A DNA stretch of 64,000 nucleotides, from positions 434,001 to 498,000 of the forward strand of contig NZ_NOXU01000032.1 of NCBI RefSeq assembly GCF_002251795.1, given 5' to 3'. This DNA is from Niveispirillum lacus (GTDB lineage: Bacteria; Pseudomonadota; Alphaproteobacteria; Azospirillales; Azospirillaceae). Below, one piece after another: positions 9,456 through 56,962 of the stretch (position 1 is its first letter; each line of letters opens with the position of its first letter). The notes under the pieces are model-generated. The model searched no databases and had not been told where the DNA came from. It saw only the letters and a program-made list of their open reading frames with translations. The position numbers and the translations under genes are program-made.

Positions 9456-9465
9456 TGTCCGGACA
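9456..9465. promoter_or_regulatory. Motif A operator, site 2
   Basis: Perfect palindrome TGTCCGGACA inside ATATGTCCGGACAATT, about 97 bases upstream of the membrane protein gene starting at 9359 on the minus strand and inside an otherwise featureless intergenic stretch. Confidence 0.72.
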
Positions 9466-19854: not shown

Positions 19855-19864
19855 TGTCCGGACA
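19855..19864. promoter_or_regulatory. Motif A operator, site 3
   Basis: Perfect TGTCCGGACA inside ATTTGTCCGGACAATT, about 100 bases upstream of the DUF3598-like gene and beside the end of the DUF1330 gene. It lies 24 bases from the motif B-like site. Confidence 0.7.
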
Positions 19865-21574: not shown

Positions 21575-21592
21575 TGGTATAATGTTATACCA
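21575..21592. promoter_or_regulatory. Motif B operator, site 5 (regulator promoter)
   Basis: TGGTATAA, TG, TTATACCA: a perfect 8-base inverted repeat, about 157 bases upstream of the GntR/UTRA gene at 21749. It is in the 338-base stretch between the MFS and GntR genes, which otherwise holds only the site at 21428. Its position implies autoregulation and links motif B to this regulator. Confidence 0.72.
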
Positions 21593-24596: not shown

Positions 24597-24606
24597 TGTC
24601 CGGACA
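24597..24606. promoter_or_regulatory. Motif A operator, site 4
   Basis: Perfect TGTCCGGACA inside ATATGTCCGGACAAAT, 20 bases before the start of the CitE-like gene at 24627, where a bound repressor would block initiation of the whole downstream operon. Confidence 0.75.
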
Positions 24607-34671: not shown

Positions 34672-34674
34672 GGG

Positions 34675-35883
34675 TCATCCCTCCGCCTGCACGACCAGAC
34701 CGCGCGCCAAAAGGTCGGCGATGCGGGACCGGTCATAGCCCAACTCGCTCAGCACATCGGTCGTATGCTGACCAGGCTTGGCCAGGTCATGCTGAAGCGC
34801 GGGACGGTGACCATCAATTTCAACCGGCAGGGCGGGCAGGCGGATCAGACGCTGATCGTCGGGCAGATGCAGGTCCAGCAAACCGCCCGACGCCGCCAGA
34901 TGTGCATCGTCGAACAGGTCCTCCGGTCGGTTGATGGGGGCAAACGGTAGCCCGATTTCTTCCAGACGCGCCAGCAGCTCGGCCTTGGTGAAGGTTCTGA
35001 ACAGCTCCTGCACGCGCGGAATGATGCGGTCGCGGGCCTGGACCCGCCCGTTATTCCTGGCCAGCGTCTCATCCGCAGCGAAATCGTCCAAACCGAAGGC
35101 TTTGCAGAAGCCAGCCCATTGCCCGTCGGTGACCACCCCGGCAAAGACCGTCTGTTCATCCTTGGTCTGGAACTGGTCATAGACGGCCCAGGCGGAAATG
35201 CGCACCGGCATGGGCCGTGCGGCCGTACCGGTGACCACATATTGGGCCATATGCTGTCCCACCAGGAACACGCAATTCTCGAACAGAGCCGACTTCACCG
35301 TCTGTCCCCGGCCCAGGGTGCCGCGCTGGATCAGGGCAGCCAGCACGCCGATGACCCCGAACAGACCGCCGATTACGTCGATGACCGAGGCACCGGCGCG
35401 CAAGGGGCGGCCCGGCGGTCCGGTCATATAGGCAAGCCCGCCCATCATCTGTGCCACCTCATCCAGGGCCGCACGATGTTCATAAGGGCCGGACAGAAAA
35501 CCTTTGGCCGAACAATAAATCAGGCCGGGATTGCGCGCCTTCACCGCCTCTTCCCCGAACCCCAGGGCATCCATGGCACCGGGGCGGAAATTCTCGATCA
35601 GGACATCGGCCTTGTCGATCAGGTCCAAGGCAACCTGTTTTCCTTCCGGGGATTTCAGATCGACCGACAGGCTGCGCTTGTTGCGACCATACATGGGGAA
35701 GTAACCGGCACCCGACCCCAGCAGGCGGCGTGTATTGTCGCCGCCGACCGGTTCCACCTTCACGACATCGGCGCCCAGGTCGCCGAGCACCATGCCCACC
35801 GTCGGCCCCATGACCATGTGGGTGAATTCCACCACCTTCAATCCGGCCAAGGGTAATGCGGCGGCTTTGTCGTCCTGCGACAT
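34675..35883 (-). CDS. CaiB/BaiF family III CoA-transferase
   Basis: 402 residues with LAGLKVVEFTHMVMGPTVGMVLGDLGADVVKVEPVGGD and MYGRNKRSLSVDLKSPEGKQVALDLIDKADVLIENFRPGAMDALGFG. It lies directly between the LeuD-like gene and the HMG-CoA-lyase-like gene, with gaps of 22 and 3 bases. In that position it should activate the product of the hydratase to a CoA ester for the lyase. Confidence 0.93.
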   Translation of the reverse strand: MSQDDKAAALPLAGLKVVEFTHMVMGPTVGMVLGDLGADVVKVEPVGGDNTRRLLGSGAGYFPMYGRNKRSLSVDLKSPEGKQVALDLIDKADVLIENFRPGAMDALGFGEEAVKARNPGLIYCSAKGFLSGPYEHRAALDEVAQMMGGLAYMTGPPGRPLRAGASVIDVIGGLFGVIGVLAALIQRGTLGRGQTVKSALFENCVFLVGQHMAQYVVTGTAARPMPVRISAWAVYDQFQTKDEQTVFAGVVTDGQWAGFCKAFGLDDFAADETLARNNGRVQARDRIIPRVQELFRTFTKAELLARLEEIGLPFAPINRPEDLFDDAHLAASGGLLDLHLPDDQRLIRLPALPVEIDGHRPALQHDLAKPGQHTTDVLSELGYDRSRIADLLARGLVVQAEG

Positions 35884-35905
35884 GAAGAACCTCGAACGCT
35901 GAAGG

Positions 35906-36514
35906 TCAGAAGAAAAGCCAGGGATAGCGGGCGCGGTATCCGCCCTCGAAATCCTGGATGGCGGGCAAGCGTTTCAGGGTGATGCCGATAGCATCCAACC
36001 CTTCCAGCAACATTTCCTTGTCGGCGGGTGCGATGGTGAATGGCAGTTCGGTCCCGTCCGGTACGCGCACAGTTTGCGCCGCCAGATCAATGGTCAGGGT
36101 CTGTGGCCGGTCGGCCGTGGCCAGGGCCGCCACCGCCGGTTCCGGCAGGACCAGCGGCAGAATGCCATTGCGCACACAGTTGCTCTGAAAGATGGCCCCG
36201 AAACTGGGCGCAATAACGCAGCGAATGCCATAATCCTGCAGTGCCCAGACGGCATGTTCGCGTGACGAGCCACAACCGAAATTGGGACCAGCCAGCAGGA
36301 TTGGCGCCTTGCGGTAGCCAAGGCGGTTCAGCACAAAATCAGGGTTTTCCACCCGCGCCGCCACATCGCTGTAGCGCCAGTCGGCGAACATGCCCTCCCC
36401 CAGCCCTTCCTTCGACACACGCTTCATCTCGCGCGACGGAATGATGGCGTCGGTATCGACATTGGCGCGGAACAGGGGGGCGGCCACACCGGTCAGTCGG
36501 GTGAACTTATCCAT
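35906..36514 (-). CDS. Aconitase-family hydratase small subunit, LeuD-like
   Basis: 202 residues from the ATG at 36514. Swivel-domain features: LFRANVDTDAIIPSREM near residues 12-30 and LLAGPNFGCGSSREHAVWALQDYGIRCVIAPSFG near 74-107, then NCVRNGILPLVLP. The gene follows the LeuC-like subunit by 4 bases, so they make a heterodimer. Its context (CoA-transferase and lyase downstream, no other leucine genes, motif B control) argues for a catabolic hydratase rather than leucine biosynthesis. Confidence 0.92.
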   Translation of the reverse strand: MDKFTRLTGVAAPLFRANVDTDAIIPSREMKRVSKEGLGEGMFADWRYSDVAARVENPDFVLNRLGYRKAPILLAGPNFGCGSSREHAVWALQDYGIRCVIAPSFGAIFQSNCVRNGILPLVLPEPAVAALATADRPQTLTIDLAAQTVRVPDGTELPFTIAPADKEMLLEGLDAIGITLKRLPAIQDFEGGYRARYPWLFF

Positions 36515-36518
36515 GGGA

Positions 36519-37931
36519 TCAAGCCTCCCCCAGCAGCGGACGCGGATCGGCGATATGGCCGGCAATGGCCGATGCCGCCACCGTCACCGGGCTGGCAAGG
36601 TGCGAACGGGTGCCCGGACCCTGGCGATTTTCAAAATTGCGGTTGGTGGAGGTCACAACCCGCTGTCCTTTGCCAAAATGCTCGCCCCCGGCAAAGAAAC
36701 ACATGGAACAGCCACTCTCCCGCCATTCAAATCCAGCCGCCTGGAAGATCAGGTGCAAGCCCTCGGCCTCTGCCGCCGCCTTCACCGGCGTGGAACCGGG
36801 CACACAGATGGCGCGAACGCCGGCTGCCACCTTGCGTCCCTTCAGCACTGCGGCGGCAGCGCGCAGGTCGGACAGGCGACTGTTGGTGCAACTGCCGATA
36901 AAGGCTCCGTTGATGGGCAGGCCGATCAGGGCGTCGCCCGGCAGAAGGCCCATATATTCCAGCGCCCGGCGCTGCGCCTGGGCTGCGTTGGCGTCCGCCG
37001 CACGCTCAGGATCGGGCACATGACCGGTCAGCGGTATGGCATGCTGCGGGCTGGTGCCCCAGGTGACGGTGGGGGCGATGCTGGGCGCATCCAGAACGAT
37101 CTCCTTGTCGAAGACCGCCTCCGCATCGCTCACCAGTTCCTGCCAGTCGGCGACAGCCCGATCCCATAAATCGCCTTTGGGCGCAAAGGGACGACCCTGG
37201 ACCCAGTCGATGGTCTTGGCATCCGGCGCCACCAGACCCGTCCAGGCGGCGAATTCGACCGCCATGTTGCACAGGGTCATGCGCCCCTCCACCGACAGGG
37301 CCGTGACAGCGGATCCGGCAAACTCAATGGCATAGCCGGCACCACCGCCAGCCCCATAAGCGGCGATCAGGTGCAAGACCATATCCTTCGCCCCCACACC
37401 GGGGGAGAGCGCTCCCTCGAACCGCACCCGCATCGTTCGGGGCCGCTTGACCACCAGTGTCTGGGTGGCCAGCGCATGCGCAGCCTCCGTCGATCCGATC
37501 CCCCAGGCCAGCGCGCCCAAGCCCCCTTGCGTACAGGTATGGCTGTCGGGGCACACGATCGTGGCCCCCGGCAGGGCAATGCCCTGTTCGGGCGACACGA
37601 CATGCACAATCCCCTGACCGCGGTCACCAATATCAAAGACCCGAATGCCGGCCTCGACCGCTGCCGCGCGGGTTTCCTGGATAAAGGCAGTGCCACCGGG
37701 CATGACCGTCGCATCACCGCGCCCTGGCAGCGTGTCAACAATATGGTCCATGCAGACAAAGGCCCGGTCGGGACGGCGCACCGTGCGCCCCTGTTCCTTC
37801 AACCCCTTCAGCGCCATGGACCCGGTCCGCTCATGCAGCAGCACACGGTCGATGTAAAGCAGGTCCGTCCCGTCGCCCAGATCGGCGACACAGTGCCGTT
37901 CCCAGAGTTTTTCGACAAGTGATCGGGCCAT
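36519..37931 (-). CDS. Aconitase-family hydratase large subunit, LeuC-like
   Basis: 470 residues. [4Fe-4S] ligands are visible in IGSCTNSR and in GCSMCFFAGG near the C-terminus; VCPDSHTCTQGGLGALAWGIGSTE is the active-site segment. The residues after the Cys pair (FFAGGEHF) differ from the LMNPD type of most LeuC proteins, supporting a different substrate. It starts an operon with LeuD-like, CoA-transferase and HMG-CoA-lyase-like genes; a motif B site lies about 40 bases upstream. Likely interconverts branched hydroxy-dicarboxylic acids. Confidence 0.92.
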   Translation of the reverse strand: MARSLVEKLWERHCVADLGDGTDLLYIDRVLLHERTGSMALKGLKEQGRTVRRPDRAFVCMDHIVDTLPGRGDATVMPGGTAFIQETRAAAVEAGIRVFDIGDRGQGIVHVVSPEQGIALPGATIVCPDSHTCTQGGLGALAWGIGSTEAAHALATQTLVVKRPRTMRVRFEGALSPGVGAKDMVLHLIAAYGAGGGAGYAIEFAGSAVTALSVEGRMTLCNMAVEFAAWTGLVAPDAKTIDWVQGRPFAPKGDLWDRAVADWQELVSDAEAVFDKEIVLDAPSIAPTVTWGTSPQHAIPLTGHVPDPERAADANAAQAQRRALEYMGLLPGDALIGLPINGAFIGSCTNSRLSDLRAAAAVLKGRKVAAGVRAICVPGSTPVKAAAEAEGLHLIFQAAGFEWRESGCSMCFFAGGEHFGKGQRVVTSTNRNFENRQGPGTRSHLASPVTVAASAIAGHIADPRPLLGEA

Positions 37932-37968
37932 CTTCCCCTACCCATGGCGGCGTCGATGCCCGCCGCAA

Positions 37969-37990
37969 AATGATCTATTGTTATATCTTT
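37969..37990. promoter_or_regulatory. Motif B operator, site 6
   Basis: AATGATCTA, four bases, then TATATCTTT, about 40 bases upstream of the LeuC-like start at 37931. Each half has one or two mismatches to the consensus, but the spacing is conserved. Confidence 0.6.
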
Positions 37991-38026
37991 ATCAGATTTT
38001 CACCGATGCGGAAGCCGCTATCAGCG

Positions 38027-39268
38027 TCATGTCTGGGTTTCGTCGCCGGGCAGGCTGTTGGGATCGGGGTAGCGCCCCATGGTCAGCAGCAGGGCTGCCC
38101 CCGCCAGCAAGGCGATGGCACCAGCCAGCAAGGCGCTATCGTAGGTGCCCGTGGTCACAAACAGTCGGCCGAAGGTGAAAGGGCCAAAGCCCGCCCCCAA
38201 GGCAAAGAAGCCATACATCATGCCGTAGATGGCCCCATAGGCCCGCATGCCGTAATAGCGGCTGACCATGAAGGCCAGAATGTCGTACTCCACCCCCGCG
38301 GCAAATCCGATCAGCAGGACCGCAGCAACAGCGGATGGTGTGGTCACCCCATCACCGGTCAGCAGCAGACAAGCCGATGCCGGCAGGGCGAGCAGCACAA
38401 AGGCCACCGCCGGCGCCCAGAACCGGTCGATCAGCCAGCCGCCAATCAGACGGCCGGCAATCACCGATGGACCGATCAGACTGGCAATCTGTACCGCCTG
38501 CTGCGGGTCCATGCCTTTCGACCCCAGGATTTTCTCCAGGTTGGGGATCGGGCCGCCCACGGCAAAGGCGATGGGCACAAAGGCGATGGCCAATATCCAG
38601 AACCGGTAGGTGCCCAAAGCCTGACGTAAGGTGAGGCCACGATGGGCGACCTGGACCGGTGCATCGACGGCGCCCTTGTCCGTCACATCGCGGAACAGGA
38701 AATAGGCCACGGGCAGCGACAGCAGCAGCGGCAGCAACGCCAGTCCGACATAGGCCATGCGCCAGCCAACGACGCCGATCAGGTAGTTGGCATAGAGTTT
38801 GGCCATCGCCCCGAACAGGCCCGTGCCCAACAAGGACAGGCCCAGGGCAAGACCCCGATGGGTGTTGAACCAGTTATTGACCGCCCGTGTCCAGGTGATC
38901 GGCAAGGTCCCCGCGCCCAGGGCCGACATCAGCATCCAGTTCACATAAAACAGGGTCAAAGACCCGTTCGACAGGGCAAAGCCTGCCAGCGTCACCCCAA
39001 AAAGCAGCACCGAGACCAGCACGACCCGGCGCACTCCGAACCGGTCCGCCGCCATGCCAGCCAGCGGCCCGACCAACATGGCCCCAAAGGTCATGATGAC
39101 CAGCGAGAACATGATTTGATCCACGCCCCAGCCGAATTCCGCCGACAATGGCGCCACAAAGACGCCGGTCGTATAGAAAGGGATCGGCGACAGCCCCGTA
39201 CCAATGCCCAGGGCGGAAGCGGCCACCACCTTCCAGCCTTGCCTGAATTCTGACCGATCGACAGACAT
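38027..39268 (-). CDS. MFS transporter, paralogue of 20172
   Basis: 413 residues, twelve helices, with GMAADRFGVRRV after helix 2 and WFNTHRGLALGLSLLGTGLFGA. By eye well over two thirds of residues match the MFS protein at 20172, including most of the N-terminal half, so the two are recent paralogues. It ends just downstream of the LeuC operon promoter and has its own motif B site upstream. GGGGG precedes the ATG. Probable carboxylate uptake; substrate unknown. Confidence 0.92.
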   Translation of the reverse strand: MSVDRSEFRQGWKVVAASALGIGTGLSPIPFYTTGVFVAPLSAEFGWGVDQIMFSLVIMTFGAMLVGPLAGMAADRFGVRRVVLVSVLLFGVTLAGFALSNGSLTLFYVNWMLMSALGAGTLPITWTRAVNNWFNTHRGLALGLSLLGTGLFGAMAKLYANYLIGVVGWRMAYVGLALLPLLLSLPVAYFLFRDVTDKGAVDAPVQVAHRGLTLRQALGTYRFWILAIAFVPIAFAVGGPIPNLEKILGSKGMDPQQAVQIASLIGPSVIAGRLIGGWLIDRFWAPAVAFVLLALPASACLLLTGDGVTTPSAVAAVLLIGFAAGVEYDILAFMVSRYYGMRAYGAIYGMMYGFFALGAGFGPFTFGRLFVTTGTYDSALLAGAIALLAGAALLLTMGRYPDPNSLPGDETQT

Positions 39269-39289
39269 GCAAGCCCCCAGGTCAATCTA

Positions 39290-39311
39290 ATTGGTATAAT
39301 GATGTATCATT
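39290..39311. promoter_or_regulatory. Motif B operator, site 7
   Basis: ATTGGTATA, four bases, then TGTATCATT, 22 bases upstream of the MFS gene start at 39268 and in the 308-base divergent region shared with the isochorismatase gene at 39577. The rest of that region shows no other palindrome I could recognise. Confidence 0.68.
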
Positions 39312-39576
39312 ATGATCAAGGCAGGGCGGCCTAGGCAATCGCAAACCAGTCTGCCGGCTAAAAGTTTCACTGCCCTTGTCCAGTGGCTGGACAGTCGATC
39401 CGGGTCTGACAAATGATCAGCCATGACCGCCATCGCCGGGCCCCTGGCGTGCGCCTGTCGAACGGATCGCCCATGGCCTGTTCAACTGACGGACAGTTGC
39501 AGCGAACAGGCAGGTCACAGACGTTCCAGTCGCGTATCGGGAAAGGCCGTTTTCTTTGCCAAAGGGGTCGCCAATC

Positions 39577-40209
39577 ATGGCCATTGATCTGAATGCCGAT
39601 TATGCCCAGGCCGGTTTTGGCAACCGCCTGGGTTGGGGCCAGCGCCCGGCCCTGTTGATCATTGATTTCGTCAATGCCTATCTGGACCCGGCCTGCCCGC
39701 TTTATGCCGGGGTGGAGGGGGCGCAGGCCGGCGCTGTCACGCTGCTGACGGCGGCACGGGCCGCTAGCGTCCCGGTATTTCACACCAATGTTGCCTACAC
39801 GCCCGGTGGCGTGGATGGCGGGGTATTCTTCCGCAAGGTCAAGGCGCTTTCCTGCTTTGAACGCGGTCTGCATCCGCATTGGGCCTCTTTCGCAACGGGG
39901 TTGGAGCCGGCAGCGGGGGAACCCGTGATCACCAAACAATATGCCAGCGCCTTTTTCGGCACATCGCTGGCTTCCACCTTGACCGCCAGCGGCATCGACA
40001 CGCTGCTGATTGCCGGCCTGTCCACGTCCGGCTGCGTCCGCGCCTCGGCCCTGGATGCCTGCCAGCACGGTTTTGTGCCGCTGGTGGTGCGCGAGGCTGT
40101 GGGCGACCGAGACGCACGGGTGCATGAGGCGAACCTGTTCGATCTGAACGCCAAATATGCCGATGTCATCGGGATTGAAGAGGCGATCACGCACCTGTCG
40201 GCGCGGTGA
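39577..40209 (+). CDS. Isochorismatase-family cysteine hydrolase, paralogue of 56324
   Basis: 210 residues from the ATG at 39577. The catalytic triad is in place: Asp30 in LLIIDFVNAY, Lys120 in VITKQYAS and Cys153 in STSGCVRAS. This group includes N-carbamoylsarcosine amidases and related amidohydrolases. The protein at 56324 is about 85% identical by eye over its full length. Here it stands alone, divergent from the MFS gene, with a terminator downstream. It probably hydrolyses an amide or ureido bond. Confidence 0.9.
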   Translation: MAIDLNADYAQAGFGNRLGWGQRPALLIIDFVNAYLDPACPLYAGVEGAQAGAVTLLTAARAASVPVFHTNVAYTPGGVDGGVFFRKVKALSCFERGLHPHWASFATGLEPAAGEPVITKQYASAFFGTSLASTLTASGIDTLLIAGLSTSGCVRASALDACQHGFVPLVVREAVGDRDARVHEANLFDLNAKYADVIGIEEAITHLSAR

Positions 40210-46570: not shown

Positions 46571-48880
46571 TCAGAAGCGTGCCTTCAACTCCACACCCAC
46601 CGTGCGCGGCGGGGCCTTTGTGGTGAAGTTGAAGACGGTGGTGTTGGGCACGACCAGCACCACGCCATCGACATTGTAGCGCTTGTCAAACAGGTTGCGG
46701 GCATAGAGCGTGGCGCTCCATGTCTCGTTTTCCACACCAAGCCGGACATTGACCAGATCAATGGCCGGCCGTTCCGTACCGGGCGTGTTCAGCGTGTCAT
46801 AGAACATCGGGCCAGTGCGGTTATATTCCACACGTGCCGACATATCGTAATCAGCAAAGACCGGTACCGTATACTGGGCGCCCAGGATCGCGTCATATTT
46901 GGCCGTGAACGGGAAGCGGTTGCCGACAGTCTGCGGCAATTCGGCATTCTTCTTGATCTCGCTGTCCAGATAGCCGTAGCCGAAGAACAGGTCCAACCCT
47001 TCGGCCACGCGTGCCTGACCGTCAAATTCGAAGCCCCGGATCTGGTTGCGATCGACAATGGAGATCACGCGCGACAGCGAGAAGGGGAAGAACTGGAAAT
47101 ATTGGGCGTTTTCCACCTTCGTGCTGAAGGCCGCGACATTCAGGGTCAGACGGCCATCCAGCAGGCGGCTTTTCACGCCCGCCTCATAAGAAGACGAGGT
47201 CTCCTTGCCGAACGCATCCTGAACGGTGGTGTTGCGCACACCGTCAGTGTTGATGATGTTGAAACGGCTGCCCAACGGGTTGAAACCGCCGGAGCGGAAG
47301 CCCTCGCCATAGGTGGCGTAGAGTGACACATCCTCCGTCGCCTTCCAGCGCAAGGACACCCGCGGCTGTGCGGCACTAAACTTGTCCGAACGGACCAGAC
47401 CCGTCACATTGGGAAGCGGGGAGAAAGCAGCCGGCGTCAGGTTTTTGGTCTCACGATCTTCCTTGTCGTACCGCATGGCGGTCGAGATTTCGAGTTCGGG
47501 CGTGATGTCATAGGCCACCTGACCGAACACCGCCCAGGCCTCGTTGGTATTGTCAGTCCAGGTGACGGCGACGACCGGGTTTGCCGCACCACCCAGCGGA
47601 TCAGGCACAATCACGCCCTGGCCCAAATCGTTACCGCGGTTCAACACGACCTCGCGGTTGAACTTGATATAATAGGCGCCGGCGATATAGCGCAGGCGGT
47701 TCTCACCGGGCGAGGTAAAGCGCAGTTCAAAGGACGTATCGTCCTGATTACGCTCCTGATACTGCGTACCATCGCGCAGGGTGGGCCCATAACCTTCGAT
47801 CAAAGCCGGATTGGTGAAAAAGGCAGACGGGGCTGGACCACCGGGGAACGGCACCCCAAACAAGGCCAAGTCCACCGCACCTTCGCCGCCCATATTCTCC
47901 TTCAGGTCGTGATAGGCGGCGGTGAAAGTGAGGGTGCCCGCCTCACTGTTCCAATCCACCTTGCCCGACAGGTCAACACGTTCCTGATTGTTGAAGCTGC
48001 GCACATTGCCGGCATAGGGGATGGAGGTGTCCCGGATATCCACACCGGTGACAAAGCCGGGCGTGCCAGCCGTCTGGTTATTGAAGTTGAAGGCGTACCC
48101 GTCGATCTCGCCATAGCCCGCCGACAGGTCGATCTCAATATCTTCCGTCGCCTTATAGACCAGACGGCCCCGCACCAAGCTTTCGGTGAAGGGGTCTTCC
48201 TTTTCCTTCAGGGTGATATTGTCGTAAAAGCCCTTGCGATCCTTGTGGACGGCCGTGACGCGGGCGAACAGCTTGTTCTCCACCAGCGGGCCACCGACAT
48301 AACCGCCGACCTTATATTCATTGCCGCGGAACTCGTATCCGGCCTGTACCTGGCCTTCCGGCGTATCGCCGGGCTTCTTGGTGCTGACCAGGATGGCACC
48401 ACCGATGGCGTTACGGCCATAAATCGATCCCAACGGACCCTTGATCACCTCGATCTGCTCAATATCCACCATCTCCTGGTTAAAGGCGTTGGGGTTGGGC
48501 ACCAGCACCCCGTCCAGGACATAGGCAAAAGGCGGCTCGGCATCACGCGGCTGAATGACGCCACGGATATGGACCTGGCTTTCACCGACATTGGTGGTCT
48601 GCAGGAAGCTGACATTGGGGGTGAGGGCCAGGAAGTCGGCCGGGCCGGAAATGCCCGCCTTCTCAATCGTCTCCGACGTGAACGCCGCCACCGCCACCGG
48701 CGTCTCGCGCGCGGTTTCGTTGCGCTGGCGCGCGATGACCACGATTTCCTCGATCATGGTGGCGCTGTTGGCCCCTGCCGGCGGCGCGCTCTGCGCCTGC
48801 GCTGGCATATTGGATACAATCATTGATGCACATATGGCCGTGCCGGTCAGCAGGCGGGCCGAGGAAATACCGTTTCGCAT
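46571..48880 (-). CDS. TonB-dependent outer membrane receptor
   Basis: 769 residues from the ATG at 48880 (AGGTGATC upstream). Signal peptide through MPAQAQS, TonB-box-like EEIVVIARQRNETARETP, plug IEVIKGPLGSIYGRNAIGGAILVST, and a barrel ending VELKARF. It is divergent from the FCD regulator at 49189, and a motif C site lies between them, so it may belong to the motif C regulon that covers the Hyu genes. Confidence 0.95.
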   Translation of the reverse strand: MRNGISSARLLTGTAICASMIVSNMPAQAQSAPPAGANSATMIEEIVVIARQRNETARETPVAVAAFTSETIEKAGISGPADFLALTPNVSFLQTTNVGESQVHIRGVIQPRDAEPPFAYVLDGVLVPNPNAFNQEMVDIEQIEVIKGPLGSIYGRNAIGGAILVSTKKPGDTPEGQVQAGYEFRGNEYKVGGYVGGPLVENKLFARVTAVHKDRKGFYDNITLKEKEDPFTESLVRGRLVYKATEDIEIDLSAGYGEIDGYAFNFNNQTAGTPGFVTGVDIRDTSIPYAGNVRSFNNQERVDLSGKVDWNSEAGTLTFTAAYHDLKENMGGEGAVDLALFGVPFPGGPAPSAFFTNPALIEGYGPTLRDGTQYQERNQDDTSFELRFTSPGENRLRYIAGAYYIKFNREVVLNRGNDLGQGVIVPDPLGGAANPVVAVTWTDNTNEAWAVFGQVAYDITPELEISTAMRYDKEDRETKNLTPAAFSPLPNVTGLVRSDKFSAAQPRVSLRWKATEDVSLYATYGEGFRSGGFNPLGSRFNIINTDGVRNTTVQDAFGKETSSSYEAGVKSRLLDGRLTLNVAAFSTKVENAQYFQFFPFSLSRVISIVDRNQIRGFEFDGQARVAEGLDLFFGYGYLDSEIKKNAELPQTVGNRFPFTAKYDAILGAQYTVPVFADYDMSARVEYNRTGPMFYDTLNTPGTERPAIDLVNVRLGVENETWSATLYARNLFDKRYNVDGVVLVVPNTTVFNFTTKAPPRTVGVELKARF

Positions 48881-49188
48881 GATCACCTGTCTCCGCTGTT
48901 CCATGGATTTTATTGATTTTCCGGGGCTGGACCGGCGTGTCGCCGTCCCGCTCGCCTCAGCAAAAACTTATATGAGATTCCGCTTTCGGCAAGCGCGGAT
49001 GCATGACATTGTATACTTTATCGATTGGATGTGACGCGAATGCCGCGGTGGCTGCCAAAGCTACGCGGCGCAGGATGTGGTTACCCGACGCACCGGCCCG
49101 ACAGAACGGATGGGTGGTGCGATCACCCGTCCTTGCGCTAAGAACAAGTGTCACTCCGCCGGGTTGGAAGCCACCAGGACATGCAGCG
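48881..49188. other. Divergent intergenic region with motif C site
   Basis: 308 bases between the receptor and the GntR/FCD gene. The only recognisable element is the TGTATAC palindrome at 49009-49016, which is nearer the receptor than the regulator. Confidence 0.5.
49009..49016. promoter_or_regulatory. Motif C operator, site 1
   Basis: TTGTATAC in the context ATTGTATACTTT, with one end position off the full TGTATACA palindrome seen at 54895 and 55052. It lies upstream of both the receptor (minus) and the GntR/FCD regulator (plus). Confidence 0.6.
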
Positions 49189-49860
49189 ATGAGCAATGCC
49201 GTCGAAAAGGCCTATGCCGAAATCCGCGACGCCATCCATGCCGGCCGATTCCCTCCCGGCGCGCACCTGAAGGAAGGGGAGCTGGCCGATCTGATCGGCG
49301 TCAGCCGCACCCCCATCCGCGAGGCGCTGCGCCGGTTGAATGCCGAAGGGGCGGTGAAGTTCATGCGCAACCACGGCGCCTTTGTCGCCGACTGGTCGCT
49401 GGATGAGATCAAGGAAATCTTTGATCTGCGCGCCATGCTGGAGGGCTACGCCGTCGAACGCGCCGCCGAACGCGCCACTCCGGAACAGGTGGCGCGGCTC
49501 CGGCAGTTGGCCGAAGAGATGCTGGCGCTGGAACCCAAGGCAACAGCCGCCGCGTTATCCCGGATTGCAGAGGCGAATGGCGAGTTCCACCGCCTGATTG
49601 TGCAAGCCGCCGGCACGCAGCGCCTGTCCCTGATGATGGCGCAGGTGGTCGAGGTGCCGCTGGTCCTGCGCACCTTCCACCGCTACAACGCCGAAGCGCT
49701 GCGCCGCAGCCTGCGCCACCATATGGAAATCGTCTCCGCCTTTGAGGTGCGCGACGGTGCCTGGGCCGGCTCCGTGATGCGCAGCCACATCGCCGCCGCC
49801 TGGCACGCGATTGAGGCAAGCCGGGCGGAAACGATGGCGGTCAGGGAAGCAGCGGAGTGA
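49189..49860 (+). CDS. GntR family regulator, FCD (FadR) type
   Basis: 223 residues from the ATG at 49189. Winged helix at residues 5-70 (KAYAEIRDAIHAGRFPPGAHLKEGELADLIGVSRTPIREALRRLNAEG) and an all-helical FCD domain with EIFDLRAMLEGYAVERAAERA, HRLIVQAAG and a C-terminal HHMEI segment whose His residues fit the usual metal site. It converges on the HyuB gene. A motif C site lies upstream of it and two more lie upstream of the Hyu/HMGL and CoA-transferase genes, making it the likely controller of that set. Confidence 0.93.
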   Translation: MSNAVEKAYAEIRDAIHAGRFPPGAHLKEGELADLIGVSRTPIREALRRLNAEGAVKFMRNHGAFVADWSLDEIKEIFDLRAMLEGYAVERAAERATPEQVARLRQLAEEMLALEPKATAAALSRIAEANGEFHRLIVQAAGTQRLSLMMAQVVEVPLVLRTFHRYNAEALRRSLRHHMEIVSAFEVRDGAWAGSVMRSHIAAAWHAIEASRAETMAVREAAE

Positions 49861-49886
49861 TTGGCGGGGCACCGAGCCCCGCCAAT
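49860..49886. terminator. Terminator between convergent genes
   Basis: ATTGGCGGGGC pairs perfectly with GCCCCGCCAAT around a 5-base loop, directly after the GntR/FCD stop and 8 bases before the end of the convergent HyuB gene. Confidence 0.7.
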
Positions 49887-49893
49887 CAACTTC

Positions 49894-51771
49894 TCACGCC
49901 GCCCGCACACTTTCCTGCATCGCCGGATCAACCGGGGCCGGAAGGCCGGTTTCCGCCACACAGCGTTCGCGCAGTTCTTCGATGTCACCGCCAAAGTTAA
50001 ACAGGCCCGTCTCGCCCCGCGCCGTGCGAAGGCTGTCGCGCAGGCTGTCCGTGGCCGCCGCATCCACCGATCCGTCGGCGGCCAGCACCACGCCATAGCG
50101 CTTGGCGCCGTCTGCCGTGACCAGCCCACGCTTGACGTCCCCCGCCACCAGCGCCGGGTCGCGGGCCAGCGGGTCGCCCCAGCCGCCGCCGCCCCAGGTG
50201 TCGAAGATCAGCAGGTCGCCGGGGCGGACCTGGATATCGTCAATCTTGGCAGCCAGCACCTTTTCTGTGCCATCAGCCCGGATCAGGACGCGGCGGGAAC
50301 GCCAGCCGGGTTCGCCACCATTCACACCCCAGGGATAGGTGAACCAGCGATCATCATGGATGGCGATGGCACCCGGTTCGAGGAAACGATAAGCGATGCG
50401 CACACCATTGCCGCCGCGATGCAGGCCGGGGCCGCCACTGTCGGGAATGGTCTCATACCGCTCGATGCGCAGCGGGAAATAGGCTTCCAGGAACTCGTTG
50501 GGCACATTGGTGAAATTGGGCCACAGTGAATGTCCGTCCGGCCCATCGCCAAAGGGGCGGCCCGGAATGCCACCAAAGCCGATCTGGAACAACTGGTAGT
50601 ACTTTCCAGACCCGCGATAGGTGCCCGACAGCATCAAATGCGGGGAGGAGGAGAAACCGGCCGCGTTCAGGAATTCCGGCGTGCGCTGCCCCAACAAGGC
50701 CCCCAGCACGTCGAACACCCGCCCAATACCATGGGTACGGCAGGACAGCGCTGCCGGATATTTCGGCTTCAGCAGCGATCCTTCCGGGATGCGGGTTTCC
50801 ACCAGATCATAGAAGCCGTCATTGAACAGGATCTGCGGGTCGAAGACCATGATCATGTAGATGCCGAAGAACATCTTCAGCATATTTTCATTGAGGTAGA
50901 AGTTGATCGAGCTTTCCGACTGGGGCGAGGTGCCTTCCCAGTCCAAGATCACCTTATCGCCCTCCCGCCACATGGTGGCCTTCAGCTTGTATGGACCATA
51001 TCCGCGACCATCGTCACAGATGTAGTCCTCAAAGCTGACCTTTTCTTCACTAATGGAAGTGGCGATCAGTTGCGCCATGGCGCGTTTGTTCCGCTCCAGC
51101 AACTCTCCCGTTGCAGAAACGAATGTTTCGGTCCCGAAACGGCCACAGAGTTCCGTGATCCGTCGGGCAGCGATTCGACAGGACGCGATGATGGCATTCA
51201 GGTCCGACCGGCACCAGTCGCGCGTGCGGGTATTGTTCAGGACCAGTTCCAGCAGATCCTCGTTCAACACACCCTTACGATACAGCTTTACGGGCGGGAT
51301 GCGGATGCCTTCCTGGAAAATGGAAGTCGCATCGGTGGGCAGGCTGCCCGGCACCTTGCCGCCGACATCGGTCTGATGGCCGAAATGGCAGGTCCAGGCG
51401 ACCAGCTTGCCATCCTTGAAGACCGGCATGATCACCAGCCAGTCATTCAGATGGCTGATGGCCCCTTCTACCGAATAGGGGTCGGACAACCAGATGATGT
51501 CGCCTTCTTCGATCGTGCCCTTGTAGTTCTTCAGGAAGCCGCCCAGGAAGGAGCCGAACTGCCCCACCACCATCTTGCCTTCGTTATTGGCGATCAGGGG
51601 GAAGGCGTCGCCCTGTTCACGGATGCCGGGCGACATGGCCGTGCGGAACAGGGTGGCATCCATTTCCGCGCGCGCATTGCGCAGGGCGTTTTCAATGATG
51701 TCCAGCGTGATCGGGTCGATGGCGACCTTCTGGAACGGGGTGGGGTTGGTTTCAATGATCTTGGCAACCAT
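49894..51771 (-). CDS. Hydantoinase B/oxoprolinase family protein (HyuB-like)
   Basis: 625 residues. Family features: DPITLDIIENALRNARAEMDATLFRTAMSPGIREQGDAFPLI near the start, GDIIWLSDPYSVEGAISHLNDW, and the Gly-rich VRPGDLLIFDTWGGGGWGDPLARDP near the end. It is the partner subunit of the HyuA-like protein encoded 28 bases upstream. Such pairs hydrolyse cyclic imides or amides with ATP, or form acetone-carboxylase-like enzymes. AGAGGGA precedes the ATG. Confidence 0.94.
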   Translation of the reverse strand: MVAKIIETNPTPFQKVAIDPITLDIIENALRNARAEMDATLFRTAMSPGIREQGDAFPLIANNEGKMVVGQFGSFLGGFLKNYKGTIEEGDIIWLSDPYSVEGAISHLNDWLVIMPVFKDGKLVAWTCHFGHQTDVGGKVPGSLPTDATSIFQEGIRIPPVKLYRKGVLNEDLLELVLNNTRTRDWCRSDLNAIIASCRIAARRITELCGRFGTETFVSATGELLERNKRAMAQLIATSISEEKVSFEDYICDDGRGYGPYKLKATMWREGDKVILDWEGTSPQSESSINFYLNENMLKMFFGIYMIMVFDPQILFNDGFYDLVETRIPEGSLLKPKYPAALSCRTHGIGRVFDVLGALLGQRTPEFLNAAGFSSSPHLMLSGTYRGSGKYYQLFQIGFGGIPGRPFGDGPDGHSLWPNFTNVPNEFLEAYFPLRIERYETIPDSGGPGLHRGGNGVRIAYRFLEPGAIAIHDDRWFTYPWGVNGGEPGWRSRRVLIRADGTEKVLAAKIDDIQVRPGDLLIFDTWGGGGWGDPLARDPALVAGDVKRGLVTADGAKRYGVVLAADGSVDAAATDSLRDSLRTARGETGLFNFGGDIEELRERCVAETGLPAPVDPAMQESVRAA

Positions 51772-51799
51772 GGGTCTGTCCCTCTGTCCAGAAGTGTCG

Positions 51800-53857
51800 T
51801 CAGGCGGTGGCGAGCGGGCGGATCAGGATCAGCCCGTAATCGTCAACCTCCGCCCCATGGTCGGGCAGCAGCACGGTGGTGCTGTCCATTTCACAAATGA
51901 TGGCAGGACCGGTGATAAAGTCACCGGCCTTCAGCTTGGCCCGGTCGTAAATGACCGCCGGATGCTCCTTGCCATCAGCCCAGAGGACATGGTCGCGCAC
52001 CTTGGCAGCCGCCGGGTTGCCATCGCCGCGCGGCAGCCTTTCCAGACGGATGGCTGAGGCCTTGCCCAGCGCCGTGGCACGGACCGTCACCAGCTCCCGG
52101 TCGCTGTCCAGGCAGAAGGTAAACAAGCGCTCGTGCTCCTTGTCAAAGGATGCTGCCAACGCTTCCAGCCCGCCTTCCGCAAACCCGTCGAGCGCCACGG
52201 GTAACGACACTTCGAACGCCTGCCCCGAATATCGCACCCCGGCCTCAAACGTGATTTCCTGATCCGCTTCCGCCACCCCCTCGGCCAGCAGTTCGCGGGC
52301 CACCGCGGCACGCAGGTCGGCCAGCAGCGCCGCAACATTGGCATTGCTCACTTCGGCAAAAATCTTGCCCACCGACTTGGCGCGTTCGGCGCGCAGGCGG
52401 GTGGTGGCATCGCCAAAGGCGCACAGCACGCCGGGACTGGGCGGCACAATGACCGGCCAGCTACCCAGCAGCTTGCCCAGGGCATTGGCATGCAGCGGCC
52501 CCGCCCCACCGAAGGCCACCAGCGCGAAATCGCGCGGGTCATACCCCTGCTGAACCGAGATCAGGCGCAGGGCCCCCATCATCGTCTCATTGGCGATCGA
52601 ATAGATGCCGTTGGCGGCCGCCGCCAGATCAATGCCCAGCGTGTCGGCGATGTTCTGCACCGACGCCGACGCCGCGGGCCGGTCCAACCGCATGGTGCCG
52701 CCCAATAACTCTTCGGGCAGGTAACCCAGCACGACATTGGCGTCGGTCACGGTCGGCTTATCCCCGCCGCGGGAATAGCAGACGGGGCCGGGCACGGCCC
52801 CGGCCGACGCCGGGCCCACGCGCAGCGCCTTGGTGAGGTCCGGCACAAAGGCGATGGAGCCGCCGCCGGCCCCGACCGTGCGGATATCCAGCGATGTGGC
52901 ACGCACCTTCAGATCACCGCATTCGGTTTCGCGCGCCAGACGCGGCTGACCATTTTCGATCAACGCCACGTCGGTCGACGTGCCGCCGACATCGACAGTC
53001 AGCAGATTCTTGAAGCCCGACTTGCCGCACACCCACAGCGCCCCGGCCACACCGCCGGCCGGTCCGCTCATCAGCAGATTAACGGGATGATCCTGGGCCT
53101 TTTCAAAGCTCATCAGACCGGCGTCGGAGCGCAGCAGGTTCATCTGCCCGTTCATGCCGGCCTTGTTCAGTTCGGCCTTCAGGTTGCGCACATAATTGGC
53201 CACACGCGGGCGGACATAGGAATTGGCAACGGTCGTCAGGGCGCGTTCATATTCCTGCATCTCCGGCAGCACCTCGGACGACAGCGACACGGGCAGATCG
53301 GGGAAGACCTCCCGCGCGATCTGGCCGGCCCGCACCTCATGCGCGTCATTGCGATAGGCATTGATGAAGGCGATGGTCAGGGCCTCGATCCCCTCCCCCT
53401 TCAGCTTTTCCAGGGCGACGCGCAGGGCAGCCTCGTCCAGGGGCGTGACGATCGACCCGTCCGCCCCGATACGCTCCGGCACTTCTACGGTGCATTCCAG
53501 GGGGGCCGTCAGCGGCGGCTTGTTCCAGACGATCCAGCCGGCCAGGCCGCCCGGCACGAAGCTGCGCGCAATGTGCAGCACCTGGCGGTAACCGTCTGTC
53601 GTCACCAGCCCCACCCGCGCCCCGGTGCTGGTCAGCACGGTATTGGTGGCGACCGTGGTGCCATGCATGAAAAGCTGCACATCCTTCGGATCAATGCCCG
53701 CCTTGGCGCAGATTTTCAGGGTGCCGGTAACAACAGCCACCGACGGGTCGTGCGGGGTGGACGGCACCTTGTCGCGAAAGGTTTCCCCCGTCTCATCCTC
53801 GATCAGCAGCAGGTCCGTGAAGGTTCCCCCCACGTCCACGCCGAGCCTGTAAGCCAT
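51800..53857 (-). CDS. Hydantoinase A/oxoprolinase family protein (HyuA-like)
   Basis: 685 residues. ASKHA-type ATP-binding motif RLGVDVGGTFTDLLLIED at the N-terminus, a second phosphate segment LLTVDVGGTSTDVALIENGQ, and RTVGAGGGSIAFVPD with the adjacent Gly-rich loop. Normal family length. AGGAG precedes the ATG. It forms one operon with the HMG-CoA-lyase-like gene upstream (60-base gap) and HyuB downstream. N-methylhydantoinase-type activity is a reasonable guess given the isochorismatase-fold amidase in the same regulon. Confidence 0.94.
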   Translation of the reverse strand: MAYRLGVDVGGTFTDLLLIEDETGETFRDKVPSTPHDPSVAVVTGTLKICAKAGIDPKDVQLFMHGTTVATNTVLTSTGARVGLVTTDGYRQVLHIARSFVPGGLAGWIVWNKPPLTAPLECTVEVPERIGADGSIVTPLDEAALRVALEKLKGEGIEALTIAFINAYRNDAHEVRAGQIAREVFPDLPVSLSSEVLPEMQEYERALTTVANSYVRPRVANYVRNLKAELNKAGMNGQMNLLRSDAGLMSFEKAQDHPVNLLMSGPAGGVAGALWVCGKSGFKNLLTVDVGGTSTDVALIENGQPRLARETECGDLKVRATSLDIRTVGAGGGSIAFVPDLTKALRVGPASAGAVPGPVCYSRGGDKPTVTDANVVLGYLPEELLGGTMRLDRPAASASVQNIADTLGIDLAAAANGIYSIANETMMGALRLISVQQGYDPRDFALVAFGGAGPLHANALGKLLGSWPVIVPPSPGVLCAFGDATTRLRAERAKSVGKIFAEVSNANVAALLADLRAAVARELLAEGVAEADQEITFEAGVRYSGQAFEVSLPVALDGFAEGGLEALAASFDKEHERLFTFCLDSDRELVTVRATALGKASAIRLERLPRGDGNPAAAKVRDHVLWADGKEHPAVIYDRAKLKAGDFITGPAIICEMDSTTVLLPDHGAEVDDYGLILIRPLATA

Positions 53858-53917
53858 TCTAAAACTCCTGTTCCCGAATGTTTTTCTGCTTTCGATGCGG
53901 CGTGGCTTGTCCCGCCG

Positions 53918-54832
53918 CTATTCCGCTGCTTGCGCTGGTGCCGGGAACATGCCTGCCCGCCCCAGCATCGCCGGATTCCGGCGTCCGATGATCCCTTCCA
54001 ACCAACGGGCAGCCTCTATGGCCGCCGCAAGGTCGATACCGGAGGCGATCTTCATACGGTTCAGCATGTAGACCAGATCCTCGGTCGGGATGTTGCCCGT
54101 GGCCGCCGGCGCAAAGGGGCAGCCGCCGATGCCCCCCAGCGAACTGTCCAGGACAGCAACGCCGACAGTCGTCGCCGCATAGGCATTGGCGATGCCGGTA
54201 TTGCGGGTGTTATGAAAATGGGCGCGCAGACGAATGCCGGGAAGGGCTTCGGCTACGGCCTGAAACCGTTCCACCACATCGGCAGGACTGGCCACACCGA
54301 TCGTATCGGCCAGGGCAATCTCATCCACACCATGGTCGGCGGCACGCTTGGCCACTTCCACCACCCGCGCTACCGCAACCTCCCCCTCAAAAGGGCAACC
54401 GAAAGACGCGCCGATGGTCACGCTGGTCGGAATCTTGGCCGCACGGGCGGCGGCCGCCACTTCCGCCCAACCGGTCAGCGTTTCCATCGTCGGGGCACCA
54501 TTATTGCGCTGGCTGAAGGTGTCGGACGCCACCAGCACATAGTTCACTTCGGTCACACCAGCGGCCAATGCCCGATCGAAACCACGGCCATTCATGGCCA
54601 GACCGATATAGGAGACGCCGTTGTCGCGGGGCAATGCTGCCAACACCGCTTCGGCATCCGCCATCTGTGGCACACGCTTGGGATTGACGAAACTGGTCAC
54701 CTCAATCCGCTTTGCCCCGGCCGCGATGGCGCGGTTGATCAATTCCACCTTCTGTTCGGTGCTGACGGGCGTGGCCTCGTTCTGCAAGCCGTCGCGAGGG
54801 CTGACCTCGACGATTTCCACCTGGGAAGGCAT
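53918..54832 (-). CDS. HMG-CoA lyase-family protein
   Basis: 304 residues from the ATG at 54832. DRE-TIM features: EIVEVSPRDGLQNEATPVS, IRLRAHFHNTRNTGIANAYAA with the His-X-His metal pair, and GGIGGCPFAPAATGN with the catalytic Cys. Diverged from the paralogue at 33733 but the same family. It leads the Hyu operon, with a motif C palindrome 63 bases upstream. Confidence 0.92.
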   Translation of the reverse strand: MPSQVEIVEVSPRDGLQNEATPVSTEQKVELINRAIAAGAKRIEVTSFVNPKRVPQMADAEAVLAALPRDNGVSYIGLAMNGRGFDRALAAGVTEVNYVLVASDTFSQRNNGAPTMETLTGWAEVAAAARAAKIPTSVTIGASFGCPFEGEVAVARVVEVAKRAADHGVDEIALADTIGVASPADVVERFQAVAEALPGIRLRAHFHNTRNTGIANAYAATTVGVAVLDSSLGGIGGCPFAPAATGNIPTEDLVYMLNRMKIASGIDLAAAIEAARWLEGIIGRRNPAMLGRAGMFPAPAQAAE

Positions 54833-54894
54833 CCGCTTCTTCCTTGCTGCGGACAGGCAGGCCAATGGCCCGACATGCCCTAATCGCTGTCAAA

Positions 54895-54902
54895 TGTATA
54901 CA
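54895..54902. promoter_or_regulatory. Motif C operator, site 2
   Basis: Perfect TGTATACA palindrome in AAATGTATACAAC, in the 244-base divergent region upstream of the HMG-CoA-lyase-like gene at 54832. Confidence 0.65.
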
Positions 54903-55050
54903 ACCATGCCCGACACAGCCCTGACAAGAGGGTTTGAGCACCGGATTTTCTCCGCACCACCCCTTGCCATGGCGCCTTATTATGTGCATCCTTTAGCGGA
55001 ACTCCAGTCGGCAGGCCCTTCCCCGCCACCGACCGGGGCCGAAATTCCAA

Positions 55051-55060
55051 ATGTATACAT
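55051..55060. promoter_or_regulatory. Motif C operator, site 3
   Basis: Perfect 10-base palindrome ATGTATACAT, centred 22 bases upstream of the GTG start of the CoA-transferase at 55077. The position would block initiation if bound. Confidence 0.68.
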
Positions 55061-55076
55061 TGATTGGGAGACGACG

Positions 55077-56321
55077 GTGACGGACCAGGGCATCGACGCC
55101 AATGAAAGCACGGGTCAGGTGGCCAAGCGCCAAGGCCCCCTGACCGACCTGCGCGTGATCGAGATGGGGCAGCTTCTGGCCGGGCCCTTCTGCGGTCAGT
55201 TGCTGGCCGATTTCGGGGCGGAGGTGATCAAGCTGGAGCAGCCCGGCAGCGGTGACCCGATGCGCGAATGGGGTCGGGAAAAGCCGCATGGCAAGTCGCT
55301 GTGGTGGCCGGTCGTCGCCCGCAACAAAAAATCGGTGACCCTCAATCTGCGCGAAAAGGCAGCCCAACAGATCGTGCGTGATCTGGTGGCCAAGTCCGAC
55401 ATCCTGATTGAGAATTTCCGCCCCGGCACCATGGAACGCTGGGGCTTGGGTTATGATGTGCTGTCGCAGATCAATCCCAAACTGGTGATGGTGCGGGTCA
55501 CGGGTTTTGGCCAGACGGGGCCCTATGCGTCACAGGCCGGCTATGGCTCCATCGGGGAGGCTATGGGCGGCCTGCGTTATGTGGTGGGTGACCCGTCCAC
55601 GGCGCCCTCACGCATGGGCATTTCCATCGGCGACAGTCTGGCCGCCACCTATGCCGCGTTGGGCGCCCTGATGGCCGTCCATGCGCGTGAACGCACCGGC
55701 CGGGGGCAGGTCGTGGACAGCGCGATCTATGAGGCGGTGCTGGCCATGATGGAAAGTCTGGTCACCGAGTATGACCAGACCGGCTATGTGCGTGAACGCA
55801 CCGGCCCCATCCTGCCCAATGTGGCGCCCAGCAACGTCTATCCGACCAGCGACGGCCAGATGATCCTGATCGCCGCCAACCAGGACACAGTGTTCAAGCG
55901 TCTTGCCGACGCCATGGAACAGCCCGAACTGGCCAGCAATCCGCGCTATGCTACCCATTCGGCGCGCGGTGCCGTGCAGCAGGAACTGGACGATCTGATT
56001 TCCCACTGGACCCGCACGGTGGAAGCCGGGCCGCTTCTGGACCTGATGGAAAAACACGGTGTGCCGGCCGGGCGTATCTACCGTGCGCCGGAGATGATGC
56101 AGGACCCGCATTTCCAGGCCCGTCAGAACATCATCAAAGTAGCTCATCCGATCTTTGGCAAACTGGCCATGCAGAACGTGGCCCCGCGCCTGTCCGATAC
56201 GCCGGGCGGCGTGGTCCATCCTGGCCCCGAGCTGGGTGAACATACGGCTGAAGTGCTGGGCGGCATTCTGGGCCTGGACCAGGACCGTCTGTCAGCGTTG
56301 AAGGCGGCGGGGATCATCTGA
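55077..56321 (+). CDS. CaiB/BaiF family III CoA-transferase
   Basis: 414 residues from a GTG start chosen because GGGAG lies six bases upstream and the longer frame lacks a plausible start. LRVIEMGQLLAGPFCGQLLADFGAEVIKLEQPGSGDPMREWG, NKKSVTLNLREKAAQQIVRDLVAKSDILIENFRPGTMERWGLG and MVRVTGFGQTGPYASQAGYG are family III landmarks. It is followed two bases later by the isochorismatase-family gene, so the two are coupled, and it is divergent from the Hyu/HMGL operon. Confidence 0.94.
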   Translation: MTDQGIDANESTGQVAKRQGPLTDLRVIEMGQLLAGPFCGQLLADFGAEVIKLEQPGSGDPMREWGREKPHGKSLWWPVVARNKKSVTLNLREKAAQQIVRDLVAKSDILIENFRPGTMERWGLGYDVLSQINPKLVMVRVTGFGQTGPYASQAGYGSIGEAMGGLRYVVGDPSTAPSRMGISIGDSLAATYAALGALMAVHARERTGRGQVVDSAIYEAVLAMMESLVTEYDQTGYVRERTGPILPNVAPSNVYPTSDGQMILIAANQDTVFKRLADAMEQPELASNPRYATHSARGAVQQELDDLISHWTRTVEAGPLLDLMEKHGVPAGRIYRAPEMMQDPHFQARQNIIKVAHPIFGKLAMQNVAPRLSDTPGGVVHPGPELGEHTAEVLGGILGLDQDRLSALKAAGII

Positions 56322-56323
56322 AC

Positions 56324-56962
56324 ATGGCACAGGACCTGGATGCCGATTATGCGCAGGCGGGGTTCGGGCACCGGTTGGGCTGGGGCAAACGCCCGGCTCT
56401 GCTGATCATTGATTTCGTCAATGCCTACCTCGACCCTGCCTGCCCGCTTTATGCCGGCGTGGAGAACGTCCGCGATCAGGCGGCAACCTTGTTGTTGGCC
56501 GCCCGCGCCGCCGGCATCCCGGTCTTTCATACCAATGTCGCCTACACACCGGGCGGTGTGGATGGAGGGGTGTTTTTCCGTAAGGTGAAGGCCTTGTCCT
56601 GTTTTGAACGCGGTCTGCATCCGCATTGGGCCGCCTTTGCCGACGGGCTGGAACCGGCGGCCGGGGAGCCGGTGATCACCAAACAATATGCCAGCGCCTT
56701 TTTCGGCACATCACTGGCCTCCACCCTGGCGTCCAGTGGCATCGACACGCTGCTGATCGCCGGCCTGTCGACCTCTGGCTGTGTGCGGGCCTCGGCGCTG
56801 GATGCCTGCCAGCATGGTTTCATACCGCTGGTCGTGCAGGATGCAGTGGGGGACAGAGACCCACGGGTGCATAAGGCGAACCTGTTCGACCTGAACGCCA
56901 AATATGCCGATGTGGTGGGGCTGGAAGAGGTTGTCACCCATCTGGCGACCATCGTTCGGTAA
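56324..56962 (+). CDS. Isochorismatase-family cysteine hydrolase, paralogue of 39577
   Basis: 212 residues. Triad Asp30 (LLIIDFVNAY), Lys120 (VITKQYAS) and Cys153 (STSGCVRAS) as in the paralogue, from which it differs at about 30 positions concentrated near residues 48-66 and at the C-terminus. It begins two bases after the CoA-transferase stop. Sharing a regulon with HyuA/HyuB, it may act as the N-carbamoyl amino acid amidase of a hydantoin-type route, but the link to a CoA-transferase is unexplained. Confidence 0.92.
   Translation: MAQDLDADYAQAGFGHRLGWGKRPALLIIDFVNAYLDPACPLYAGVENVRDQAATLLLAARAAGIPVFHTNVAYTPGGVDGGVFFRKVKALSCFERGLHPHWAAFADGLEPAAGEPVITKQYASAFFGTSLASTLASSGIDTLLIAGLSTSGCVRASALDACQHGFIPLVVQDAVGDRDPRVHKANLFDLNAKYADVVGLEEVVTHLATIVR

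Follow-up and report, generated by a model that had tools for sequence, protein, structure and literature searches.

Two described transcriptional regulators, Atu1419 of Agrobacterium fabrum and AlkR of Pseudomonas aeruginosa, invite comparison with the gene considered here, which encodes a GntR/FCD regulator of 223 amino acids (49189..49860, plus strand) in a 64,000-nucleotide stretch of the Niveispirillum lacus genome (contig NZ_NOXU01000032.1, positions 434,001 to 498,000; hereafter the window). As described in PMC7797058, Atu1419 controls a catabolic cluster that includes its own gene, recognizes the operator ATGTATACAT in promoter palindromes as well as a degenerate palindrome in the reading frame of a target, and forms a tetramer that can loop paired palindromes. 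AlkR is described as a VanR repressor whose gene diverges from its target alkB2, whose operator (ATTGTCAGACAAT) is a palindrome over the -10 element, and which is released by fatty acyl-CoA (PMC12042122). Local FCD regulators that use a TGTATACA operator are a kind of system already known, and the locus described here is compared with it below.

The 49189 gene stands in a run of catabolic genes and diverges from the gene of a TonB-dependent receptor. We are confident that it encodes a VanR-group FCD regulator of (A/T)TGTATAC(A/T)(A/T) operators, likely acting as a local repressor; release by a carboxylate would then induce receptor and catabolic genes together. Judging from sites and residues, its product very probably binds four places, of which O1 and O1′ lie at the receptor and FCD genes and O2 and O3 in the divergent promoter region between the operon of an HMG-CoA-lyase-like (HMGL-type) lyase with hydantoinase subunits HyuA and HyuB and the genes of a CoA-transferase and an amidohydrolase. 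Bound there, the regulator would cover the start regions of the receptor, HMGL and CoA-transferase genes until a small carboxylate of the pathway releases it, whereupon the receptor and the catabolic genes would be induced jointly. The core of O3 is identical to the Atu1419 operator as published, and here too promoter sites are accompanied by a degenerate one in a target reading frame (PMC7797058). In the open PubMed Central literature we found neither the gene cluster nor this regulon, nor TTGTATACAA together with GntR, nor Niveispirillum together with hydantoinase.

The regulator protein

The 49189 product carries a GntR winged helix (Pfam, 68.7 bits, cut-off 27) and an FCD domain (90.3 bits, cut-off 24.3), which places it in the FCD subfamily (PF07729). 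In the VanR group of this subfamily the C-terminal domain is described as having six helices instead of seven (PMC7797058); six are also seen in our structure model, at residues 71-95, 98-117, 120-141, 144-155, 168-186 and 190-222, so that the protein as modelled is a VanR-group member (predicted local distance difference test, pLDDT, 83.1; predicted template modelling score, pTM, 0.71; nine sequences; pLDDT below 50 at residues 157-164). The metal site of the group, Asn/Asp and three His, is described for Atu1419 and two other members (PMC7797058), and its Atu1419 ligands Asn137, His141, His192 and His214 align with Asn130, His134, His178 and His200 here. The residues through which helix 3 of Atu1419 is described to contact ATGTATACAT, Ser44, Arg45, Thr46 and Arg49 (PMC7797058), correspond to Ser39, Arg40, Thr41 and Arg44, which are invariant in seven aligned FCD proteins.

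Searching the PDB with the model, the lowest Foldseek E-value (2.3e-10, TM-score 0.61) was obtained for Atu1419 on palindromic DNA (6za3), and the TM-score of AlkR, 0.81, was higher than that of Atu1419. By sequence the best PDB match was PmiR of Pseudomonas aeruginosa (7xp0, 79.6 bits), with Atu1419 second; PmiR senses 2-methylisocitrate according to the title of Cui et al. 2022, as cited in PMC13086498. AlkR resembles the regulator in group, fold, divergence from a target and a palindrome over a -10-like element, and differs from the system predicted here in operator, target and releasing ligand. Orthology with Atu1419 was rejected because identity in the fold match is only ∼25% and the target genes differ, those of Atu1419 being hydroxycinnamate genes; N5,N10-methylenetetrahydrofolate has been proposed as the effector of Atu1419 (PMC7797058). 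PhnR of Burkholderia (TIGR03338) was likewise rejected, the score of 132.3 bits falling under the cut-off of 271.5.

Four predicted operators and their conservation

The original prediction placed TGTATAC palindromes at 49009, 54895 and 55051 and paired them with the 49189 gene and three adjacent targets. An exact search of the window confirms the places to within one base (plus-strand starts 49010, 54895 and 55052), and in the 64 kb the heptamer is confined to them (5 strand-hits against 0.99 expected, with at least 5 in 0 of 100 shuffles). All three sites are present, but the count is four, as ATTGTATACAAT, the word that stands beside related regulators, has exactly four matches in the window at up to two mismatches (0.43 expected; four reached in 0 of 100 shuffles), namely the predicted three and O1′, which had been missed. 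O1 (49008..49019, ATTGTATACTTT), the first of the predicted sites, lies between the divergent receptor and FCD genes. O1′ (48809..48820, ATTGGATACAAT), the closest ATTGTATACAAT match of the four, lies within codons 29-32 of the receptor gene, among those of the signal peptide. O2 (54893..54904, AATGTATACAAC) is upstream of the HMGL-HyuA-HyuB operon, ∼65 bp from the ATG of the lyase gene (54829). O3 (55050..55061, AATGTATACATT) directly precedes the ribosome site of the CoA-transferase gene, lying immediately before GGGAG and 16 bases from the GTG start codon (55077). As to palindromy, O3 alone among the predicted sites is a perfect 12-bp palindrome, and that of O1 is imperfect in its right arm. 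The operator consensus given for the FadR subfamily, the palindrome NyGTM-N0-1-KACNy (PMC4494728), is matched by the GTA-TAC of O1, O2 and O3; O1′ departs from it with GGATAC. On the reading strand the O1′ codons are ATT-GTA-TCC-AAT (Ile-Val-Ser-Asn), a choice with a product of 0.0012 under the codon usage of the counted window genes, where GTA makes up 45 of 1206 Val codons.

The tight word alone is informative, since the loose motif WTGTATACAW at up to two mismatches occurs in the window at chance level (21 against 22.85 expected, 21 being reached in 69 of 100 shuffles) and was therefore dropped. Genome-wide, TGTATACA is not enriched either, with 9 copies against 11 for the reversed control pattern in 4,971,122 bases, so that the argument is one of position and conservation. 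Two of the nine copies sit in the single HMGL/CoA-transferase intergenic region. WTTGTATACWWT has one copy in the genome, O1 (control 0), and ATTGTATACAAT at up to one mismatch occurs at one place, 48809-48820, which is O1′ (reversed control 4).

The original prediction had named in advance conservation of the sites with the cluster as its test, and the sites held. We compared six genomes assigned to Niveispirillum, Azospirillum or Alpha proteobacterium and a seventh (G068) found by family search. Six genomes, the window included, share this gene order, and in each of them the four sites are retained, in one case with a substitution. In an alignment of eight receptor/FCD intergenic regions (window, L010-L015 and L041), the run ACATTGTATACTTT at O1 (49006-49019) is the longest invariant non-coding one, with 14 bases against 5 for the runner-up, a length reached in 0 of 20,000 column shuffles. 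In eight HMGL/CoA-transferase regions (window, L010-L013, L041, L054 and L055), the longest non-coding run, ATGTATACATT, is at O3 and the second-longest, ATGTATACAA, at O2, both invariant in all eight genomes; a run of 11 arose in 8 of 20,000 column shuffles and the top two jointly in none, on the simplifying assumption that columns are exchangeable. The third-longest run, CTGACAAG, also invariant in 8/8, is on the HMGL promoter side and covers a possible minus-strand -35-like element of the HMGL promoter (CTTGTCAG, 54921..54928). This invariant CTTGTCAG is possibly the -35 element, in which case O2 would lie over the -10 region. O1′ is kept in all eight aligned genomes, one of which has ATTGAATACAAT, even though the surrounding signal peptide is much changed in two; its distance from O1 is 199 bp in six genomes, the other two having 201 bp.

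In two genomes, G071 and G075, the receptor and an FCD ortholog (77-79% identity) are separate from the Hyu cluster and O1 is retained with them. Their Hyu cluster has another FCD gene (49-50% identical), the third after the CoA-transferase and amidohydrolase genes, and both operators between HMGL and CoA-transferase persist, at spacings of 176 and 178 bp in place of 157, which means that one word serves two FCD genes.

Outside these relatives, cluster, FCD gene (41-49% identity) and word are all kept at three loci from three other families of the class (L097, L098 and L120), and a TonB receptor, 34-37% identical, goes with the cluster in each. L098 has an exact ATTGTATACAAT between receptor and FCD genes and, in the gap separating HMGL from CoA-transferase, TTTGTATACAAT; in L097 the gap between HMGL and CoA-transferase contains two words, and one lies upstream of the FCD gene; L120, whose cluster ends at the contig end, has ATTGTATACAAT between the FCD and receptor genes, followed by HMGL, HyuA and HyuB on the strand of the receptor. 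Within the family to which N. lacus belongs, a second genus has FCD relatives (50% identity) that adjoin LeuCD rather than Hyu genes, with two to three copies of TGTATACA within 1 kb in 8/8 genomes. In all eight (L046-L053) one of these copies closely follows the FCD gene, ∼650 bp from the start of that gene; in L046 it falls between two converging genes.

The dependence of the word on the FCD gene was seen in a survey of HyuA loci. Searches with HyuA returned 36 hits at E ≤1e-220. The neighbourhoods of 34 of these were inspected, and four further named relatives bring the survey to 38 loci (second copies in G068 and G075 stand outside these). TGTATACA is present at all 11 loci whose FCD gene is at least 41% identical and at 3 of the other 27 (Fisher 3e-6), and with the positive loci collapsed to independent clades the comparison is 5/5 against 3/27 (Fisher 0.0003). 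The three exceptions, L109, L127 and L130, carry the word without an FCD gene of at least 41% beside it; one of the 27 has an FCD gene at 30% identity. Together with the close relatives this bears out the earlier claim that motif, regulator and three targets belong together.

Several observations weigh against the proposed regulon. Six of the 11 positive loci form one close clade, and some negative loci are on short contigs (3.7 to 12 kb), where absence is weaker evidence. The core word is common among FCD regulators, and FCD genes at 37-39% identity (L056-L058) have TGTATACA in 0/3 cases within 20 kb. In the protein, the phosphate contact Arg31 of Atu1419 is replaced by His26. A simple promoter scan returned nothing near O2 or O3, a result that also counts against the promoter explanation discussed below. 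Finally, the O2-O3 spacing is 157 bp in six genomes and 176 and 178 bp in two, and L098 lacks the second close site at both places. Because of these last two points, looping of the paired sites by a tetramer is weakly supported in this analysis and was discarded as a general feature, spacing varying and other families being without a second close site; it is retained as a mere possibility, which the paired sites here would fit, given the paired palindromes described for Atu1419 (PMC7797058).

Other readings of the sites

The sites could be operators of another regulator, for example a VanR-like FCD protein encoded on contig C25, with the adjacent FCD product at most accessory. The C25 gene stands beside a VanA-like gene and has two copies of TGTATACA nearby, and in L054 and L055 the same operators precede a different FCD gene. 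This bears on the original pairing of the sites with the 49189 product, which stands as co-occurrence (11/11) but not as an exclusive assignment, given the second FCD gene of G071 and G075 and the C25 gene with its TGTATACA. Since, across families, the word accompanies the neighbouring FCD gene of at least 41% identity in 11/11 loci and the C25 protein is only ∼30% identical, we consider control from elsewhere unlikely. On C25 itself (L117 7719 and 8011), a VanA-like gene, the FCD gene and a reductase gene are found together; TGTATACA occurs both upstream of the first gene and within it, the layout also seen for O1 and O1′.

It is very improbable that the sites are instead conserved promoter cores (-10-like TATACT or TACAAT) or chance occurrences. 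O1 does contain TATACT, and it overlaps a weak -10-like TACAAT for the receptor, a minus-strand promoter-like match (9/12) ending within it; the loose motif is at chance in the window and TGTATACA no commoner in the genome than its reversed control. What is conserved, however, is a symmetric word, in both orientations and at differing positions; O1′ lies in a coding region, and in the 38-locus survey the occurrence of the word depends on the FCD gene. We also give little credence to a regulator that binds the sites and activates, as some FCD proteins do, citrate-bound CitO being described to induce the cit promoters (PMC4746285), because the positions of both O3, between the promoter region and the ribosome site, and O1, over a -10-like element, favour repression, and because the VanR-group proteins Atu1419 and AlkR are both described as repressors (PMC7797058, PMC12042122).

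The window has other palindromes, which are different words: TGTCCGGACA and TGGTATA-N4-TATACCA. Perfect copies of TGTCCGGACA, perhaps among the other motifs of the original prediction, lie at 1048-1057, 9456-9465, 19855-19864 and 24597-24606, all outside delimited genes, and at up to one mismatch there are 8 in the window against 2.39 expected (8 reached in 0 of 100 shuffles). An inverted repeat, TGGTATAATGTTATACCA, occurs once in the window, at 21575-21592, upstream of a GntR-type gene at 21749.

Genes of the cluster and the candidate substrate

The receptor gene (46571..48904, minus strand, start 48904 or 48880) matches Pfam TonB_dep_Rec (159 bits) and Plug (62 bits). The minus-strand operon begins with the HMGL-type lyase (53918..54829), which passes NCBIfam PRK05692 at 324.8 bits (cut-off 246), a profile that names the HMG-CoA lyase subfamily and not an assayed substrate, and matches HMG-CoA lyases in the PDB (234 bits). 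It is followed by HyuA (51800..53857; Hydantoinase_A, 304 bits), with N-methylhydantoinase as best PDB sequence match (478 bits), and HyuB (49894..51771; Hydantoinase_B, 492 bits), the two hydantoinase/oxoprolinase subunits. On the plus strand are the class III CoA-transferase (55077..56321; CoA_transf_3, 419.5 bits) and an isochorismatase-fold amidohydrolase (56324..56962; Isochorismatase, 124 bits), whose PDB matches are N-carbamoylsarcosine amidohydrolase (171 bits) and then 3ot4 and 3uao (144 bits). Among NCBIfam profiles, curated equivalog cut-offs for named hydantoinase-type enzymes are unmet; caprolactamase (NF050156 and NF050157, 528.5 and 235.2 bits) is below the 1000-bit cut-off per subunit, and the named CoA-transferase families fall below their curated cut-offs as well. 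A second HyuA/HyuB pair in the genome (63% and 71% identical; L111 6929-10840, contig C22, ∼21 kb before the window) has neither FCD gene nor TGTATACA in the surrounding 20 kb. At 33733-40209 the window has another group of genes for an HMGL-type lyase, a CoA-transferase, a LeuCD pair and an isochorismatase-fold protein, without the operator word nearby.

From the gene content the substrate is probably a cyclic amide or imide, and on the simplest reading HyuAB would open the ring, after which de-amidation, CoA activation and cleavage by the lyase would follow. In the creatinine route, N-methylhydantoinase and N-carbamoylsarcosine amidohydrolase act together, and these are the best PDB matches of HyuA and the amidohydrolase; we rejected this pathway because it leaves unexplained the CoA-transferase and HMG-CoA-lyase-like enzyme, which are unneeded there. 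A more specific scheme, which we regard as unlikely, is a tetrapyrrole-fragment regulon in which a dialkylmaleimide from chlorophyll or bilin breakdown would be imported by the TonB receptor and degraded, the FCD protein sensing a hydroxy-dicarboxylate. Its steps would lead from dialkylmaleimide through maleamate, dialkylmaleate and dialkylmalyl-CoA to central metabolites, by way of HyuAB, the amidohydrolase, a LeuCD-type hydratase, the CoA-transferase and the HMGL-type lyase. The scheme draws on the amidohydrolase matches 3ot4 and 3uao, which we take to be maleamate amidase, and is favoured by the FCD relatives that adjoin LeuCD under the same operator in 8/8 genomes of the second genus; in the one such genome examined, a lyase of the PEP mutase/isocitrate lyase superfamily there also matches 2,3-dimethylmalate lyase. 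Against it, the window LeuCD pair passes plain isopropylmalate dehydratase cut-offs and the window scan places no operator word near it. No paper in the open PubMed Central literature was found to combine any two of dimethylmaleate hydratase, dimethylmalate lyase and maleimide.

As the operators mark co-regulated genes, a single substrate is probably shared by the TonB receptor and the ring-opening enzymes, and the search for that substrate becomes narrower. The gene run becomes a testable regulon candidate with a defined regulator and four predicted operators, and its seven-gene core (receptor, regulator, HMGL-type lyase, HyuA, HyuB, CoA-transferase and amidohydrolase) is conserved in several alphaproteobacterial families. 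Within its own clade it offers a natural experiment, since sister species have, at the same operators, two FCD genes that are ∼50% identical to each other.

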